From NCBI GenBank assembly GCA_017871115.1, contig JAFCIZ010000002.1, forward strand, positions 1,633,501 to 1,697,500: a DNA stretch of 64,000 bases, written 5' to 3'. The translations under genes and the position numbers were made by a program. This DNA comes from Cunninghamella blakesleeana. Taxonomy: Eukaryota; Mucoromycota; Mucoromycetes; Mucorales; Cunninghamellaceae. How positions within the stretch are numbered: position 1 is the first letter of the stretch; every line of letters starts with the position of its first letter. Under the pieces are notes generated by a model. The model was not told the origin of the DNA. It ran no database searches and saw nothing but the letters and a program-made list of their open reading frames with translations. Positions 5,171-46,284 of this stretch are shown in pieces.

Positions 5171-6117
5171 GTGCTGGTATTTTTTACTCAAAGCCGTGGC
5201 ATCCTTTTATTATTATTATTATCCGCCTTCTTGGCAAAATGATATGTTGTCTAGCCTTTTGTATCAATATCCTGCTCTAGCTGAGCATTTTCTTTATTTA
5301 TTTTAATGAGATAAGGTGCATTTTAATGGTTTCAAATTCTGTCATGCAAATGAATCTTAAAATTATTACTACCTCTATCATATGTTGCGATCCAGTTAGG
5401 ACTAATGGGATTCAGTAGCAACTTAATCTCTATTTTATTTTTTAATTTTAGAATATATCATTTAATGATTTGATTAAAAAGAATGAATGGATTAAAAAAA
5501 AACTAGTGAACAACTTACATTTAAAAAAACACAATGTTTAATATTAATACTATTTGAATGAAAATATGTGTATAGCTTTTATACATACTTTTTTTTCTTT
5601 TTTTCTTTTTTCTTTTTTTTTTACATACGTATCAATTATTTTATAAAAGAAAACTGAGAAATTAATTATGAAAAAACTATAGGCAAGTTCTACGTATTAT
5701 TTGTAAGAGAGTCGCTAGTAGAACTCGGTTTATCTTGTTTTCATTAATTCTTTCTATATTATCAATTCTTTATTACTTTCCGGATTTTTTTTTATCGCCA
5801 TTGATTTTTTAAATACAAAATGTTTTGAGAAAAGAAAAAGTCAAAAAATTGTATATAGTGCTCTTTTTTTTTTCTATGTGATAAATGAATTTCCATTTAT
5901 AAGTTTCAAAAAAAATCCATATGTTGTGTACATGGTAATATCCAGAATATACATTTATTAAGCATAAATTAATAACTGAAATAAAAATTCCTGTTTTTTT
6001 TCATTTTCTATAGTTTTTTTTAAAGGAGGAAAGCCCCGGCCATAAAAAAGCGCAGCCAAAAGTGAACTTTCCAAGGTTTATAAAAATTATGCGCTCGATA
6101 TGTCTTGATATCCATAC

Positions 6118-6156
6118 CACAAAAATATTTTTTTTATAAAAAAAAATATTTTTGTC
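6118..6156. repeat. Long AT inverted repeat upstream of IPK1
   Basis: ACAAAAATATTTTTTTTATA followed at once by AAAAAAAATATTTTTGT: a nearly perfect palindrome of about 37 bp that could form a hairpin or cruciform. It lies about 130 bp upstream of the inferred IPK1 start, just before a TATATAAG element near 6188. Whether it has a regulatory role is unknown. Confidence 0.7.
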
Positions 6157-6285
6157 ACATAAATTTAAAGTCAGTTTTACCCAACCTTATATAAGTGACG
6201 CGCCCTTTTTTATAAAGAAGAAAATTTTTTTCTCCGTTCGTTTTCTTCGACTTTTATTTTATCTTTTATACCAACTTGTGGTTTA

Positions 6286-20572: not shown

Positions 20573-21847
20573 CTAATCAATGATAAGAGAACCATTTAAA
20601 ATGGACAAGACCATATCAGATATGATTGCTTTTTGAAAATGATCTTGATACACTTGCCATTGTAAAGTCAATGTAAGCCCCAATTCCTGCTCAAGGCTTA
20701 ATCTTAAATCATAAGGAATCCGATAAATATCAAATGTTAAATGATCTACTGCATATTGAAGTAAAGATTGAACAATAAGAAGTCGTATCATTTGAATTGC
20801 TAAATTTTCATTCCTTCCCCCACATTCTAAAGCCGTTTTCAATTTAATCCAAATATCCTCTTTATTTTTGTCCAATGGCGATGATGATAAAGATGACGGT
20901 GGTGGCATAGCGAATAAATAGAGAGATGTCGAAGAAATTTGTTTTAATAAATTATAATCCATAAATGATAAATCCCAAGTACAATTTCTTACTTTTTCCA
21001 TAATTGTTCGAGTAGAAGTAAACGATTTAGGCTGCTGTTCTTGTTGTTGATAAAAATGATCCACATATCTTATTATTTGATAAATACAATGTCTAATCAT
21101 TACTAATTGCTGAACATAATTTTCCATTTCCATTATTTGACTTGTAGTAGGGATAGCATAAGGGATACTAGCCATATGTTTTCCAAAAAATCGCGTCCTA
21201 CCTTGTTGGTCATAGTAACAGTATGCTCGTATAAAAAATTGAACCGTGCTTGAATTTAAAATGCCAAGAAAATAGTATTCAAGTGATGCATTAGTGAATG
21301 GCTGCCGTAATTGCTGTTCATTTTCTAATGATGGTGAGGATTGAATAATGGGTTGGTTGGCTTTAATAGTAAAATACATACATTGATTGGTAACACATCG
21401 ATAAGACCGATCCATAAAAAACCTTTGTCTTGGTTGCGTCCGACTAAAATAACCAAAGTTAATAGGATGAACAAATTTCACTGGTACATCCATTCCACAT
21501 TTATTATAATGGCACCAAGCTATCTTTTTTTCTGTTTGGCCAGGTTGCAATTCAAGTCGCGCTTCTTTTAAATAATGATATAATGAGCTGGTGGGATCTA
21601 ATTTTTCTGAATCATCTTTATTGATTAAGATCATGGAATAAAATGATTGATGATGTTCATCCAAACGATCAAAGGGAACATAGGCTTCGGCTGGGGAGGT
21701 TTCTTTTTTTGTCAATCTTTGGGGGTCGCGGTGATACCAAAATTTAATTTCTTTACACACTTTATCATTTATTAATGTATTAGAGTGAGGAGAATGATGA
21801 TGAATATGATCCGTATTATTCATATCGTTGATATTATTATTATTGTA

Positions 21848-21878
<31 letters not shown>

Positions 21879-24560
21879 CTATTCATTTTAGTATTATTAT
21901 TGTCATTAATATTATCATTATTTTTATTATTAGTTGTTATAATAGTAGTAGTAGTAGTAGTAGTAATAGTGTTGTTATTAGTAGTATTAATTGTGTTGTT
22001 ATTAGTAGTATTAATGGTGTTGTTAATATCATTATGTTGTTGTGTTCTATTAATGAGTAGGAGATTATGGTTATGACTATGATTATTATTGTCGTCGGTA
22101 ATAGTAAAAGATGTGGTAGGTGTGGAAGGTGTATTAATTGATGATAATGTTGAAATGGATGTAGAAGTAGATGTCGATGAGGATGATGCCATAGTTGAAG
22201 TTGAAGAAGATGGAGATATATACAATGAAGATTTCGACATGGAAGATTTTCCATTCCAATAAAAAACTGGCCTTAGCCATCTATCACAGTATTCCTTTCC
22301 AAATTGTTGAATTGCCCATTGCGTTCGAACGACTAATGCATAAACAGGGTTTGTGTTAGGGCCACGATGCCATATTAAAGGAGAGATTGATCCCTTTTTC
22401 CCTCGTTCTCCATCACATAACCTAGGATAACTACGTGTAATATCCATTAATTGATCAGACACAATGGATGTAGGTGATAAATAACCAAACGATTTATGCA
22501 TAATTGTATCAAAAAGATGAATATCATGAGTAGGTGTTTGTTTATATTTAATCAATGGATCTTCTTGTGAAGGTTCTGCATGTGTTGGGTCAAAATGTTC
22601 ATAAGCATTCAAGATGTCTATTAAGCTTGATTTACGTGATAAATATCTTAAAAATAAAACGTGTTGATGATGGCGGTGATGGTGATTATGATGATCTATA
22701 ACTTGATTATTCATGTTTTTTTCTGGCCGTTTACACAGTCTAAAAATAAGTGAATCAGTCTGTACTTTTGGCCATACTTTATAAGGTTCAAATTGAAAAA
22801 ATTCTAGTAATTGACAATTGGTCCATATCCATTTTCTAATTATATACAAAAATAGAATAAAATAATATTATTAATGATAGATAAATTTAATAACTATATT
22901 TTCAATTGTTTTTTTTTTTTTCCCTTACCTTAAACTTTCAGCAAATTGAAGTACTGTCCATTGGCTTGGAGTAATAAAACATAATTGACCAGTAGTAGGA
23001 CGGCAGCGTTGAAGACAAAACCACATAAAATACATATATGCTTGCGTTCCTTTCCCACCTAAATATGTATCATCATATAAAGTCATGTCTGGATCATTAA
23101 TGAAACCCGTTTTACGAATCATATAAGGTGGGTTGGTGACAATATAATCAAATACTAATTGCGACGGATCTCTTAATTTTTCAAGTTGTTGTTGTTCCCA
23201 TAATGAATCATTTGTTGGGGATAAGGATATATTTTTATCTAAGCGTAATGTATCATTTCTAAAAAGTGACAATCGACCAATACTAAATCCGTGGAAGGAG
23301 GTATTTAATAAAAGGCACTGCTGATATAAAGGAAACATATGTATCATGATATTTAGTTTTCCAAGTTTAAAAGCGAAAGGGTCAATTTCTACTCCCCATA
23401 TTGTATCTGATAACTGGGATAAAATTCTTTTTAATGCTTCCCCATTATGCCATATCTCTATTGGATAATATTGTTTCACTTGATCGATTAATCTTGTTAA
23501 ATATTCGCACAAAAAAGACCCAATGCCCATACAAGGATCAAAGACACGAGGTAAAGTTAGATGAGGATAGGGATGGTCATTTAGAATGAGAAAGGAAGAA
23601 GGTGATGAGGATGGTAAACATCGGTTCCACATGAATTGTACGACACTTTGAGGTGTATAAAACTGACCATGATCTTTTTGATGTTGTTGGGCCACAGGCT
23701 GTAATAAATGAGTTGTATAAAATCGAGTAATCACCGTATCCATTAAAGTTAAAGAACGAAAAGGCTGAATTCCCTTTGTATAAAAGCGATATTGAAGGTC
23801 ATTCACTAACTCTGTACGATGCTGCCAGTGGTACCAAGTAAAATAATCATCTGATGAGCTAATTACATCATCTTTGCAAGTAAAAAATCCCAAAAATTGA
23901 TCAAAAGGCTTCACTTGATTGTCCTGTACTAAATCATTAAATACTATCTCTATTAATCCAAGATACACTGACATGAAGCCTGTCATTAGACAATACATAT
24001 CTGCTGATGCCTGTTGACTTAATGGTTTTGTATCTTCTTGAACTTGGTATAAAAACGTATTAATCGCTGCTAAAGGAATATCTGGTATACAATCCACTGT
24101 ATTATAAAAAAGAAAGAAGAAATAATAAAAAAAGGTAAATAAAAAAAATATGTATTATATGTATAAAGAAGAACAATGAACAAACGTATGAATAAAAAGA
24201 TACATATATAGTTATAAACAAATAATTATAAATAAATAAATAAACAAAATAAAGTTTACCATTTTTGTGTTGTTGCTGAAGTAATGCATTCCAAATATCT
24301 ATTTTGACTTTTTTTAACATTACACCCAGTATATCAATAATAATTTGAGCTATACTATCTGTCATTTCCCAAATAAGATCAGTTGAATCTGTTGAAGTAG
24401 AGCAAGGTGTATGTAAATGGTTATAGGATTCTTCTGACATTAGATCATAATCTCTTTTATTGACATTGTTAAGGTTTTGTTTTAAGGGACTAGTAATGGG
24501 TGAATGAAGAAGGACTGGAAGGGTTGCTGTTGTTGTTGTATCTGTTATATTATTAATAAG

Positions 24561-24596
<36 letters not shown>

Positions 24597-24704
24597 ATTA
24601 TCATTTGTTGTACATAGAGGAGGTTGGGATAATATTGCAGTAGATATTGGTGGCAAAGTTAGTATTGGAGGAGCATGTCTAATATAATCATTAATATCGA
24701 TCAT
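20573..24704 (-). CDS. Type IIG/Eco57I-like adenine-N6 DNA methyltransferase with TaqI-like specificity region
   Basis: Predicted SAM-dependent DNA adenine methyltransferase. Three exons (24704-24260, 24096-22929, 22835-20573) join in phase to 1291 aa. Visible motifs: GQFYTP near residues 292-297, typical of type I/IIG methylases; motif I FDPCMGIGSFLCEYL (DPCMGIGSF about 335-343); an acidic strand end WGVEIDPFAFKLGKLNI (about 382); catalytic motif IV TNPPYM (NPPY about 470-473). Then AESLRKWIWTNC crosses intron 2, and a target-recognition-like segment YFLGILNSSTVQFF...FFGKHMASIPYAIP lies at about 1053-1098, as in the TaqI/Eco57I C-terminal specificity domain. About 150 residues of Ser/Thr/Asn low-complexity sequence (about 740-890) are inserted in the third exon. 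No PD-(D/E)XK nuclease motif is evident in the first 290 residues. The architecture is bacterial, but introns and low-complexity inserts show it is resident in the fungal genome. Bacterial origin by transfer is inference. Confidence 0.85.
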
Positions 24705-28928: not shown

Positions 28929-29777
28929 GTATATTATTTAATAATATAACGTAAATATTACCTTCTCTTTTCTTCACGTAAAACTTCGCTTGTTCCAGCT
29001 TCCATATCATCATCTGAATATATACTTTCATTAGCATACCTAAAAAAAAAGAGGCATATGTATATGTATTAGTAACTTTTTAAAAATACATCATGATAAA
29101 AAAAATAGAAGGTAAAAATAATATGTAGTGGAAGCTTACTTTGATCGGTCATAACGGAATAATTTACTAATTTCAGAAGAATAATCATTATTATAGCGGT
29201 GACCTATTTCTTCTTCTTCATCATCATCTACAATAAACGAATCCAAATCTTCATCTTCCTCTTCTTCATCTTGATATCTACTACGACGTTTCATATCTCT
29301 TTTTGGGTCCACAACCCGTTTAAATGGCATTCTAATAGGCTGCCTTTGTTGTTGTTGTAAAGGAGGATAAGGCCGTTGAGAAGAAGAATGAAGTCTATCT
29401 GATTTCATTCTTGATGCACTACTACCATTATCCATAGGTCTATTATTATTACTATTTCTTACTGTTGGTCGTTGGTCTATTCTTTGTTTTTTTCGATAAT
29501 AAGCATCCTCTTCCTCTTCATTATCTGAATACTTTCCCTTTGCGTGTCGAATATCTCTTTGAATTTCCTCAATTGATTGTCTGTCCCGTTTCACTCGTTG
29601 AACTTGCTGTAAAGGTGTATTATGAAGTAATTTTATTCTATCACGTGCTCTCATATTAGCATTGACCAAGGGTTCTTTTGGTTTAGACTTAGGTACAGTA
29701 CTAAATGGTCGTTTGACATATAATGATGACGTTGCCAATGAAGATGAAGATGGAGGTGTATTGGATCTTATTGGTCC

Positions 29778-29812
<35 letters not shown>

Positions 29813-30828
29813 TATTAGTTAATTATATTTATCCTTTACTAACTAATAATAATCTTTTATTGATTGATTGATTGATTTTAAATTACGCATTAATATTATT
29901 TATTATTTATTTTACCTTTAATTTCCTTATTTGATTTATTCATTAATAATGAGGATGGTAAACTATGATCTTTTGTGGATTTTATTGGAGTTGTTACTGT
30001 TGTTGCTGAGGATGGAGTTGTTACTGTTGTTGCTGAGGATGGTGTTGATTTTTTTGGTTGTGCTACTTCTTTTGCTTTTTCCATAAGTTGTTCATAAGAT
30101 ATATGTACAGGTTTCTATTTATATAAAATAAAAATAATATATGTATTAAATAAATAAATAAATATAAAAACATATGTACATAAATATATATATATACTCC
30201 TTTAAAAATACGTACACATATACATAATCATTTTATCTTATTTTATTTTGTTTATTGTTTACCTTTTTTTCAACTATAGGTGGTGGTATAGATACATTTT
30301 TTTTAGTTTTTGAACTAGAAGAAGCTTGTCTTGATTTTGAATCCATGGATCTCCCTTGACGTTGTTGATTACCGATAGATGGTTTACGACTACTGGCACT
30401 GCTGCTACTATGAACATGATTATTAATACTGCTATTATTATTTGATAAGGTTGTTTTTTTCTTTTGTTGTTGTAATTGCTGTTGTCTTTGTTCCATTTCA
30501 AGTTTTTTTTTTTGTAATTCTTTTTCCTTTCTTTCTAGCTCCCTTTTTACAGCTTCTTCTTTTAAACGCTTTGCTTCTTCTATTTTTCGTCTTTCTTTGG
30601 CTTTTTCTGATAAGGCAGCATCTTGAGCTTTAGCGACATCGGCTGCTTGGGCCATAAGTTGTTCAAAAGTAATATCCTTTGAATTGCCCTAAAGAAAAAA
30701 AATATAAGTATTTTTTAAAAAAGAGATCTATTTATTAAAATATATATATACATTTATTTTTAATAAATATTTCCTTTTCTCTATTATTATTATTTATTAT
30801 TACTATTATTTATAAATACCTTTATCAT
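28725..30828 (-). CDS. SPT2: SPT2 family chromatin protein
   Basis: Histone H3-H4-binding chaperone of transcribed chromatin. Six exons (30828-30820, 30688-30263, 30114-29916, 29776-29140, 29039-28962, 28815-28725) join to 479 aa. The first coding exon is only nine bases (Met-Ile-Lys). The N-terminus has ITFEQLMAQAADVAKAQD and a highly charged coiled coil (about residues 25-70, EKAKERRKIEEAKRLKEEAV). A second EQLM motif (ISYEQLMEKAKEVAQ) is in exon 3. The diagnostic SPT2 domain is C-terminal: acidic stretch, ISKLFRYDRSKYANES, then DDDMEAGTSEVLREEKRSER and LARREDQLEEQLELERQKRK. Matches to the family consensus (MEA, EEKRS, ED, basic end) are clear. The protein is nuclear, with basic clusters throughout. 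Confidence 0.9.
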
Positions 30829-43529: not shown

Positions 43530-43779
43530 ATTACCATTATTATTATATAAAAAATAATGAAGAAAGAGATAGGTATTTTATAGAGTTTAATTTAAAAATA
43601 TATTTTGAAGAAAAAGGGAAGAAAAAAATGATCAATTTTTTTGCTTTAAATGATATTAAAATACCGCTTTTTTTTAACAGCGTCAAAATTTTTATCACTC
43701 TCACTTTTTTTTGCTATTTCTTATTTCAATACGTTATATTACTATTACTATTATTATTTTTATTTAAAAAAGGAATGAT
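43530..43779. promoter_or_regulatory. Compact bidirectional promoter, TONSL-like/SET1-like
   Basis: Only 250 bp separate the two divergent start codons. The middle contains A-rich and T-rich tracts, an ACCGC/GCGTC-containing core (about 43662-43686) and CACTCTCACTTTTTTTTGC on the SET1-like side. Both transcripts must initiate here. Confidence 0.6.
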
Positions 43780-46284
43780 ATGACATCTTCATCAACTATT
43801 CCATCCTCAAATAGAAATAACAATGAAAATGATAATTATTTAATAAATAATGGATCGTCTTCTTTTAATCTAACTCATATACAATCACCTCCACGTTCAG
43901 CTTCACCTACTTATTATCACAGTAATAGTAGTAACAATACCCAAGCAAATGTACCACTACGATCTTCATTCATAATAGACATAGCTGAACAAGACCCAAC
44001 TTTACAAACTTCTTTGCCTAAGATATCTCAAGTATCACTGTCGTCTTCTTCATCAGACGTAACACCAAATATAGATCCAGCACCGACGGCTAGCTTTGAT
44101 CCTCACCCTCACTGCCATCAACAAAACTCTTCCACAATTACTACAGATATCGTTATGGCAACACCTCCTCCATTACCAGAAGATATAGTACAGTCTATTT
44201 CAATACCTCCTGAAGTGATATCAATTGAATCTACCGAAAATAACACTATTAGTACAGCTACTATACAACCACTGCCACCATTACCAAAAAAAATAACACG
44301 CCGTGGGCGGAAAAGGAAGTCTAACTTGACGAATAAATATAAGCTTAAGAAAAAAAGAGCCTCTATGGCTACTGATAATACCTCTCCTTCCCAACAACAA
44401 CCAGATAATGAAGAAGAGCTGTTAATAAAAATGAAGTTGGAGGGGAAAAAAAAGCTGGAAGCTGAAGATAAAAAACTAGAAGAAAAAAATCAAAAAATCA
44501 AAGAGGAGCAAAAAGAATTACAAAGGCGAATCTCTCTGTTGGCTCCAGATTCAGATTCGGATGATGGGGAAAATCTATTTAACACCACTACAGATTATAA
44601 TAAAAATGAATTTATAAAAATATTTACAGAAGTACAAGATAGTGAAGATTATAAATGGCTTCAAAAGGCTTTTTTAGAAAAATATCATACTGATTGTTAT
44701 GCAGAAAATAACACCGTATCAATTGATACTACCACTAAAACATATTCATCATCATTATCATCATCACCATCGTCTGCTACTACTACTACTACTAGTTCCA
44801 TCCGTTCTAATGGAATTGAAAATCAAATTAAAAACAATATATTAATGCCACTAAAACCATCTGATAATGATACACTCCAATCTGAAACTGCACATGGATC
44901 TAATACAAATTATTGTACATCTATACCTACACCTTTTGATTCACTTTCTGAAACTTATGAAAATTGTAATGACAATATTAGTAAGTATTATGGCATCTCT
45001 CCATCACCTTTGTTGAGTGCAACCATTACTACTAATGGATCACAATCATTTGATTCTCCTCCTCCTTTATTGTCACCTTTTAAAGCCAAATGTCTATCAC
45101 CTCTATATTTAAGTATATTTGAAGACCAATCTAATTCATCTATCCACCCTTTTTCTTCAAATGAAATAGAAGCAAAAAAAATAATCAGTGACCCGCCACC
45201 GTTGTCACCATTAGCAACAAATATCATTAATAATAGATATATTCAATCTAAAATTGCAGAAAATTCCTCTTATATGGAGTGCGCTAGATCAAGGATATTT
45301 ATATCGTCCAAATTTGCTAAACCTATACTTAATAAAAATATATCATCGCCAACTTTGCCATCAGTATCATCGTTTTCATCAATAAAAAAAACATCTCCTT
45401 TATTAACTTCACCTCAATCACTTTCTGCATTAACTACTACTACACCACCATCAGCATTATCCACTTCATTCAAGGAAGTAAACCCACCCTTAGCCTCCTA
45501 TTCCGCATCGTCATTATCCTCATCTAATATAAGCAATGCTAATACAATTGACTCAAAAGAATCTAGAATAAAAAACTTTCAACTTAATTTTCAAAACAAT
45601 TTTACAAAATATCAAATGTTAAAGAAAAAACAAAAGAAATTGAAATTTGGAAGATCAGCTATTCATGATTGGGGACTCTTTGCCATGGAACCTATTTATC
45701 AAAATGAATTTGTAATTGAATATTTGGGGGAAGTTATTCGACAACAAGTAGCCAATCATAGAGAACGAGAATATGAAGAAAATGGGATAGGTAGCAGTTA
45801 TTTATTTCGCGTGGATGATGATATTATTGTGGATGCTACGATTAAAGGAAACTTGGCTAGATTTGTAAATCATTGTTGTACTGTAGGTTTTTTTAGTATA
45901 TTTATATATATATAAGAATAAGAAATAATATAATTTCTATAGCATTATGGACGTAATTAACATTTTTTTACTCTACTTTTTTTAAAAAATATTAGCCTAA
46001 TTGTAATACAAAGATAACTAAAATTGGTAAAAAGAAAAGAATAATTATTTATGCTAATCGAGATATCAATCCTGGAGAAGAAATTACTTATAATTATAAA
46101 TTTCCAAAAGAAGATGAAAAAATACCTTGTACTTGTGGTAGTAAATTTTGCAAAGGATCGTAAGTGAATATATATATGCATTTAGTGACAATGGTGATGA
46201 TTATATATTTTTTATGAAATTACACTAATAATCGTTTTCATTATTATTTCCATTATCATATTATTTATTAATAGATTAAACTAA
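43780..46284 (+). CDS. SET1/KMT2-type histone H3-K4 methyltransferase, short N-terminus
   Basis: Predicted catalytic subunit of a COMPASS-like complex, transferring methyl groups to H3K4. Exons 43780-45882, 45996-46159 and 46275-46284 give 758 aa. The C-terminal 140 residues are a textbook SET1 catalytic core: [94 protein letters not shown], and a post-SET CxCxxxxC ending in CKGSLN. A possible n-SET element ([17 protein letters not shown], about residue 290) and an ECARSR stretch (about residue 500, resembling the WDR5-binding Win motif) are present, separated by Ser-rich linkers. RRM domains usual in fungal Set1 are not present, and the upstream neighbour leaves no room for them. A basic coiled segment lies near residues 185-250. 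Confidence 0.88.

Follow-up and report, generated by a model that had tools for sequence, protein, structure and literature searches.

Results

We analysed 64,000 nucleotides (nt) of the Cunninghamella blakesleeana genome (G000:C2:1633501-1697500, contig JAFCIZ010000002.1; assembly of 31.9 Mb in 12 contigs), referred to here as the window. On its minus strand lies a gene that is very probably the Cunninghamella ortholog of metB, described by Lax et al. (2024; PMC11258239) as a gene of the N6_Mtase type that is conserved among early-diverging fungi and separate from MT-A70. As such it would encode a fungus-resident, bacterium-derived N6-adenine DNA methyltransferase of the gamma class, acting as a stand-alone writer similar to CamA of Clostridioides difficile. 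The gene runs from 24704 to 20573, and its exons of 445, 1168 and 2263 nt add up to 3876 nt, i.e. 1291 amino acids (aa) and the stop codon, in an intact spliced reading frame. Both introns are of the GT-AG type (GTAAAC...ATACAG and GTAAGG...AATTAG), and the GC content of the gene is 39, 35 and 22% at the three codon positions, in a window of 26% GC. The motifs GQFYTP, DPCMGIGSF, IDPF (residues 386-389) and NPPY follow each other in gamma-class order (Table 1). The reading frame, introns and motif order proposed in an initial annotation, which was made from the sequence alone, were thus confirmed. The deposited C. echinulata protein P0001 aligned with the window protein from the first to the last residue (1180 identities over 1205 aligned positions), lacking window residues 32-55, 866-867 and 1024-1083. 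At the second splice junction a stretch of 15 residues is identical in P0001, and the first junction is spanned by P0002, also from C. echinulata, with two substitutions in a 16-residue stretch. Among the matches listed, the closest named proteins were those of C. echinulata, 99% and 95% (P0002) identical over the queried region.

In Pfam, the window protein matched Eco57I (3.7e-20) and N6_Mtase (PF02384; 4.3e-14, 53 bits against a cut-off of 20.4), both above the curated cut-offs, and nothing else at E<=1. At that level there was no match to MT-A70 (PF05063), the protein having NPPY instead of DPPW, and none to TaqI_C or to any nuclease family. These matches agree with the annotation in making the protein a bacterial-type N6-adenine methyltransferase rather than an MT-A70 enzyme, and in finding no nuclease motif. 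The TaqI-like recognition end that it had described was not recovered in the window protein; TaqI_C was detected in six of eight relatives scanned, above cut-off in one, and was missing from C. echinulata P0002 and Gongronella P0053. Nucleases of the PD-(D/E)XK type have an alpha/beta fold. In the Phycomyces model, the parts that precede the catalytic domain and follow the recognition domain consist almost entirely of helices, and the fused nuclease domain of type IIG enzymes was found neither there nor among the Pfam matches. NCBIfam gave only sub-cut-off matches, to MAD2 and to the PglX family (NF033451; 32 bits against a cut-off of 400). For four family members, the best PADLOC model was type IIG for P0001 (6.8e-13) and P0060 (2.8e-12), and mad2 for P0004 (8.3e-18) and P0025 (2.9e-17). 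We rejected a defence-system assignment from these matches and took them to reflect the shared catalytic domain only.

When window residues 220-720 were used as the query, 125 proteins matched at E<=1e-3, and the best 120 of these were considered. The best 100 matches, all at E<=6.3e-29, constitute one family. Organism names are attached to 89 of these, and all 89 are early-diverging fungi, belonging to Mucorales, Umbelopsis, Endogonales, Glomeromycotina, Mortierellomycotina, Calcarisporiella, Basidiobolus and Paraphysoderma. The remaining 20 listed matches were PglX-like (E 1.5e-9 or weaker; two named BREX-1 PglX), and these are the closest bacterial-type matches by single-sequence search. 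Another search, started with the Blastocladiomycota member P0060, returned 79 proteins, and every named match was again an early-diverging fungus; the Conidiobolus member named by Lax et al. was not among the listed matches of either search. Membership in an old eukaryotic family acting on substrates other than DNA, which the annotation had set out as the contrary outcome, left no sign in these searches, which listed only the fungal family and PglX-like proteins (such a family was not put in the tree). The relatives from Mortierellomycotina (e.g. P0054-P0059, P0081, P0084) are often 1500-2250 aa long, far longer than those of Mucorales.

The family alignment comprised 62 relatives, two of them from C. 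echinulata, which helps the conservation count slightly; six hits without NPPY were left out. In this alignment 125 columns are conserved at 95% or more, and at every one of them the window protein agrees with the consensus. NPPY is present in all 62 aligned relatives and in 94 of the 100 family matches, and the Asp and first Gly of motif I are kept in 61/61 aligned relatives with residues there. Leaving Gongronella aside, we counted 78 near-invariant columns in the recognition domain and 70 in the core, all of which are retained in the window protein. Judged from the alignment, the agreement at all 125 conserved columns speaks against relaxed selection, which the annotation had set out as a second contrary outcome. 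The recognition domain is 62% identical to that of Phycomyces and carries inserts of 18, 129 and 19 aa relative to it; the first two of these lie within a low-complexity stretch predicted to be disordered, with a block-mean predicted local distance difference test score (pLDDT) of 23-41 in the C. echinulata P0002 model.

The predicted fold matched DNA-bound CamA over almost its entire length, recognition domain included, and CamA was aligned at lower root-mean-square deviation than the competing folds. CamA is an orphan methyltransferase (7lni, 7lt5, 8cxs) whose adenine cage of Tyr30, Tyr168 and Phe253, and the role of Lys172, have been described (PMC8187626). The cage residues aligned with F294, Y473 and W559 of the window protein. 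Among aligned relatives, these positions are F or Y in 61/61, Y in 62/62, and W or F in 61/61 (first and third: relatives with residues there), so that a three-aromatic adenine cage is predicted for the family. Motifs X, I and IV and the recognition domain stand in one chain in the same order as in CamA, and a Lys172 equivalent and the lack of a nuclease are shared as well. The two proteins are only 18% identical, CamA His171 corresponds to Arg476 here, and MetB is set apart by an additional helical domain at its N-terminus (some 120-140 aa in Phycomyces) and by longer loops and C-tail. The targets, CAAAAA for CamA and AAAACA for Mucor MetB, are both non-palindromic and A-rich, although the sites differ. 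Lax et al. named MmeI (5hr4) as the solved homolog of MetB and reported, through HHpred, an MmeI-type recognition domain (PF20466) in it (PMC11258239). In our profile search of solved structures, MmeI was absent from the 12 sequences found at E<=0.01; the first 733 residues, searched as a single sequence, had no true match to solved structures at E<=1, the sole row being an alignment to a His-rich tag. We propose that CamA, not MmeI, is the nearest solved relative of MetB. This structural inference is new but modest; among the matches listed in the open-access literature, no paper linking MetB with CamA was found. The type IIG label of the annotation is loose: it fits the best PADLOC models of two of the four members, but not the nearest solved relative, nor the absence of a visible nuclease.

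In a tree of 44 rows (38 non-bacterial and 6 PglX-like), the 38 non-bacterial rows fell on one side of a branch with a Shimodaira-Hasegawa-like approximate likelihood ratio test (SH-aLRT) support of 100, with Mucor (M. circinelloides) within the fungal side. Glomeromycotina, Mortierellomycotina and Umbelopsis each formed one group, and the window protein branched together with C. blakesleeana in the vicinity of Gongronella. Two changes were needed for Mucorales without Gongronella and one for Gongronella, the latter with a support of only 63. With the PglX outgroup, the root fell inside Cunninghamellaceae; we rejected this placement as a long-branch effect, the bacterial branch being very long (some 4.4 changes per column on each side of the root). 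A search of genome contigs for a bacterial donor gave 4 distant loci (23-30% identity), and IMG/VR gave one (23%). Lax et al. inferred, with a tree, an ancient bacterial transfer of metB and proposed an endosymbiont origin (PMC11258239), which our searches neither supported nor excluded. Adenine methyltransferases of giant viruses and phages (e.g. Hyperionvirus, Bodo saltans virus, Cafeteria roenbergensis virus) were fold matches of model mb9340d1a8416 in BFVD, at E 4e-11 to 4e-8 and with lower coverage. Judged from these predicted folds, a viral route of transfer is conceivable.

We then compared recognition-domain identity with core identity as a ratio, over 1653 family pairs outside Gongronella. 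The mean ratio was 0.96-1.14 by core-identity band. At 30-50% core identity there was little contrast between bacterial PglX-like pairs (0.97, 0.90; bacterial domain borders approximate) and fungal pairs (1.14, 0.98). This speaks against a frozen recognition domain. The contrast was clear only in closer pairs, with 0.82 (36 pairs, 50-60%), 0.64 (9 pairs, 60-75%) and 0.71 (11 pairs, 75% or more) in bacteria, against 0.96, 0.98 and 1.01 in fungi. Together with the conserved columns, these ratios predict a shared target across these fungi, Gongronella excepted. The five Gongronella butleri copies (P0049-P0053), four of them probably on one contig, keep NPPY, and retain 50-58 of 77-78 near-invariant residues in the recognition domain and 50-56 of 70 in the core; the core has therefore loosened too. 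Compared with one another (10 pairs), they had a ratio of 0.78, and compared with the other family members one of 0.84-0.90. At the CamA-Lys172 position they have L, W, A, K and R; we did not retain this position as a special specificity switch, since 22 of 158 near-invariant columns show at least four states among the five copies (in one of the 22, a gap was taken as a state). Gongronella is absent from the main text of Lax et al. (PMC11258239). Under a speculative reading, which we consider less likely than not, metB would have multiplied in Gongronella, a genus of Cunninghamellaceae, to at least five copies that kept their catalytic motifs but diversified the recognition domain, giving this eukaryote several writers of N6-methyladenine (6mA) that differ in sequence specificity. 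The copies are candidates for changed specificity, and a general loosening of constraint is also possible.

The features of the gene are listed in Table 1.

Table 1. Features of the metB-like gene in the window
Feature	Position	Strand	Description and basis
Exon 1	24260..24704	-	residues 1-148 + 1 nt; N-terminal low-complexity Asn/Thr tract, start of helical domain; translation, P0001 alignment from residue 1
Intron 1	24097..24259	-	163 nt, GT-AG; P0002 reads across junction
Exon 2	22929..24096	-	helical domain, motif X, motif I, acidic strand, motif IV; translation, Pfam
GQFYTP (motif X), residues 292-297	23651..23668	-	F294 aligned with CamA Tyr30 of adenine cage
DPCMGIGSF (motif I, SAM binding), residues 335-343	23513..23539	-	sequence; conserved among relatives
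NPPY (motif IV, catalysis), residues 470-473	23123..23134	-	followed by MIRK: R476 invariant, K477 aligned with CamA Lys172
Intron 2	22836..22928	-	93 nt, GT-AG; junction residues same in P0001
Exon 3	20573..22835	-	end of catalytic domain (W559 of cage), target recognition domain, helical C-tail, stop
Target recognition domain, about residues 606-1100	21149..22633	-	mapped from Phycomyces model residues 441-780; borders approximate
Low-complexity Ser/Thr/Asn/His stretch, residues 737-898	21755..22240	-	loop of recognition domain; predicted disordered in P0002 model

Ten other open frames of the window were scanned, and six had a Pfam domain: homeodomain, TRF2/HOY1 PH-like, CNH, SPT2 (29136-29822, minus strand), SET (43768-45915, plus strand) and FAD-binding. 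The gene setting is therefore eukaryotic. Rfam at gathering thresholds and ARAGORN detected only a U11 small nuclear RNA in the window (6026-6210, minus strand; RF00548, 70 bits against 39), a sign of the minor spliceosome. The genome as a whole gave one Eco57I match, i.e. one metB copy found, and four MT-A70 matches at three places (L004-L007, on contigs C10, C2 and C6), L004 having DPPW followed by PNKS and L006 DPPL. Both MetB-type and MT-A70 writers thus seem to be present, as in Mucor. Contig C1 holds another PF02384 match (E 3.1e-4), which was set aside as HemK/MTQ1-like by its motifs; it scored 2.4 bits on the family profile.

Discussion

According to Lax et al., deletion of metB in Mucor lowered 6mA by 70-75%, chiefly the asymmetric fraction, and the AAA6mACA motif was lost (PMC11258239); MetB has since been reviewed (PMC13297926) and cited in later work (PMC12695648). 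Mucor MetB belongs to the same family as the window protein and shares with it the N6_Mtase domain, the recognition domain, bacterial ancestry and the restriction of named members to early-diverging fungi. The Cunninghamella protein differs in its long low-complexity inserts, and the target motif and phenotype reported are those of Mucor. The BREX proteins PglX/BrxX and the type IIG/IIL enzymes MmeI, DrdV and BsaXI have related catalytic and recognition domains, but no nuclease was seen in the window protein by Pfam, and its PglX score is far below the cut-off. The MT-A70 writers (Mta1/Mta9, METTL4) also make 6mA in these fungi, but with DPPW, at symmetric ApT sites and from a different family.

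We suggest the following mode of action. The N-terminal catalytic domain would bind S-adenosylmethionine (SAM) via motif I and the acidic strand; one adenine would be flipped into the aromatic cage of F294, Y473 (of NPPY) and W559 and methylated there; and the C-terminal domain would read a short non-palindromic sequence, probably an AAAACA-type site as in Mucor. With such a site only one strand would be marked, which would explain 'asymmetric' 6mA; as this leaves no hemimethylated template, the marks would have to be remade after each replication.

Several observations weigh against this interpretation. AAAACA occurs 138 times in the window against 132.5 expected, neither enriched nor depleted, so that the motif draws no support from composition. 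The gene is also present in Phycomyces (P0004), where 91.72% of 6mA sites are nevertheless symmetric, which means that metB does not have to be the main contributor to the methylome. Six of the 100 family matches have no recognisable NPPY (P0086, P0093, P0096, P0098-P0100; some are partial). In Lax et al., the case for MetB activity comes from deleting the gene, the mutant in a catalytic motif being one of mta1 (PMC11258239), and the main text does not name Cunninghamella; M. circinelloides P0025 stood in for M. lusitanicus MetB, whose own sequence was not compared. The lead of CamA is modest by Z score as well: most CamA entries scored 24.6-26.6, overlapping with the type I M subunit 3ufb (25.0 and 25.4, over fewer residues), DrdV (24.2, 24.9) and BrxX (25.1).

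Of the alternatives, a changed target site in Cunninghamella deserves the most attention. In neighbouring Gongronella there are five copies whose recognition domain has diverged, and the window protein itself has three inserts in this domain. However, all 78 near-invariant columns there are kept, identity to Phycomyces there is 62%, and the two inserts of 18 and 129 aa lie in predicted disorder; we therefore consider a changed site unlikely. NPPY also occurs in protein-glutamine and RNA methyltransferases, and the protein might methylate RNA or protein instead of DNA, like HemK/MTQ1 or some rRNA adenine methyltransferases; the genome does hold a HemK-like NPPY protein. Against this, the fold match runs along nearly the whole of DNA-bound CamA, the Pfam matches are DNA-methylase families, and deletion of the Mucor ortholog removes DNA 6mA (PMC11258239). 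A non-DNA substrate is thus very improbable, and the other role in binding DNA or RNA that the annotation had left open is disfavoured.

A decaying or inactive relic of the ancient transfer might account for the large low-complexity inserts, but it is a shade less probable still, given the intact frame, the 70/70 core and 78/78 recognition-domain columns, and NPPY in every aligned relative. The bacterial ancestry of the domain could also suggest contamination, or a restriction-modification system on a mobile element. To this we attach hardly any probability: the gene has GT-AG introns, a 26% GC window and fungal-type neighbours (homeodomain, CNH, SPT2, SET), the same family is found in many fungi and clusters by fungal group in the tree, and no nuclease family was matched in Pfam. 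In line with the annotation, we regard it as a gene of the fungal chromosome itself, under strong constraint.

Taken together, our results support a lone sequence-specific 6mA writer of the MetB kind, as the annotation had suggested, although not a new one: a bacterial-type MetB writer in fungi was published in 2024, and the gene is in this sense mostly ordinary. It is notable for a eukaryote to employ a bacterial, sequence-specific DNA methyltransferase as an epigenetic writer of its own, but this has been in print since then. Our analysis adds CamA rather than MmeI as the structural model and a simple possible reason for 'asymmetric' 6mA. It also predicts that most of the fungal family share a single conserved motif, with Gongronella as a natural exception in which target specificity may have diversified.
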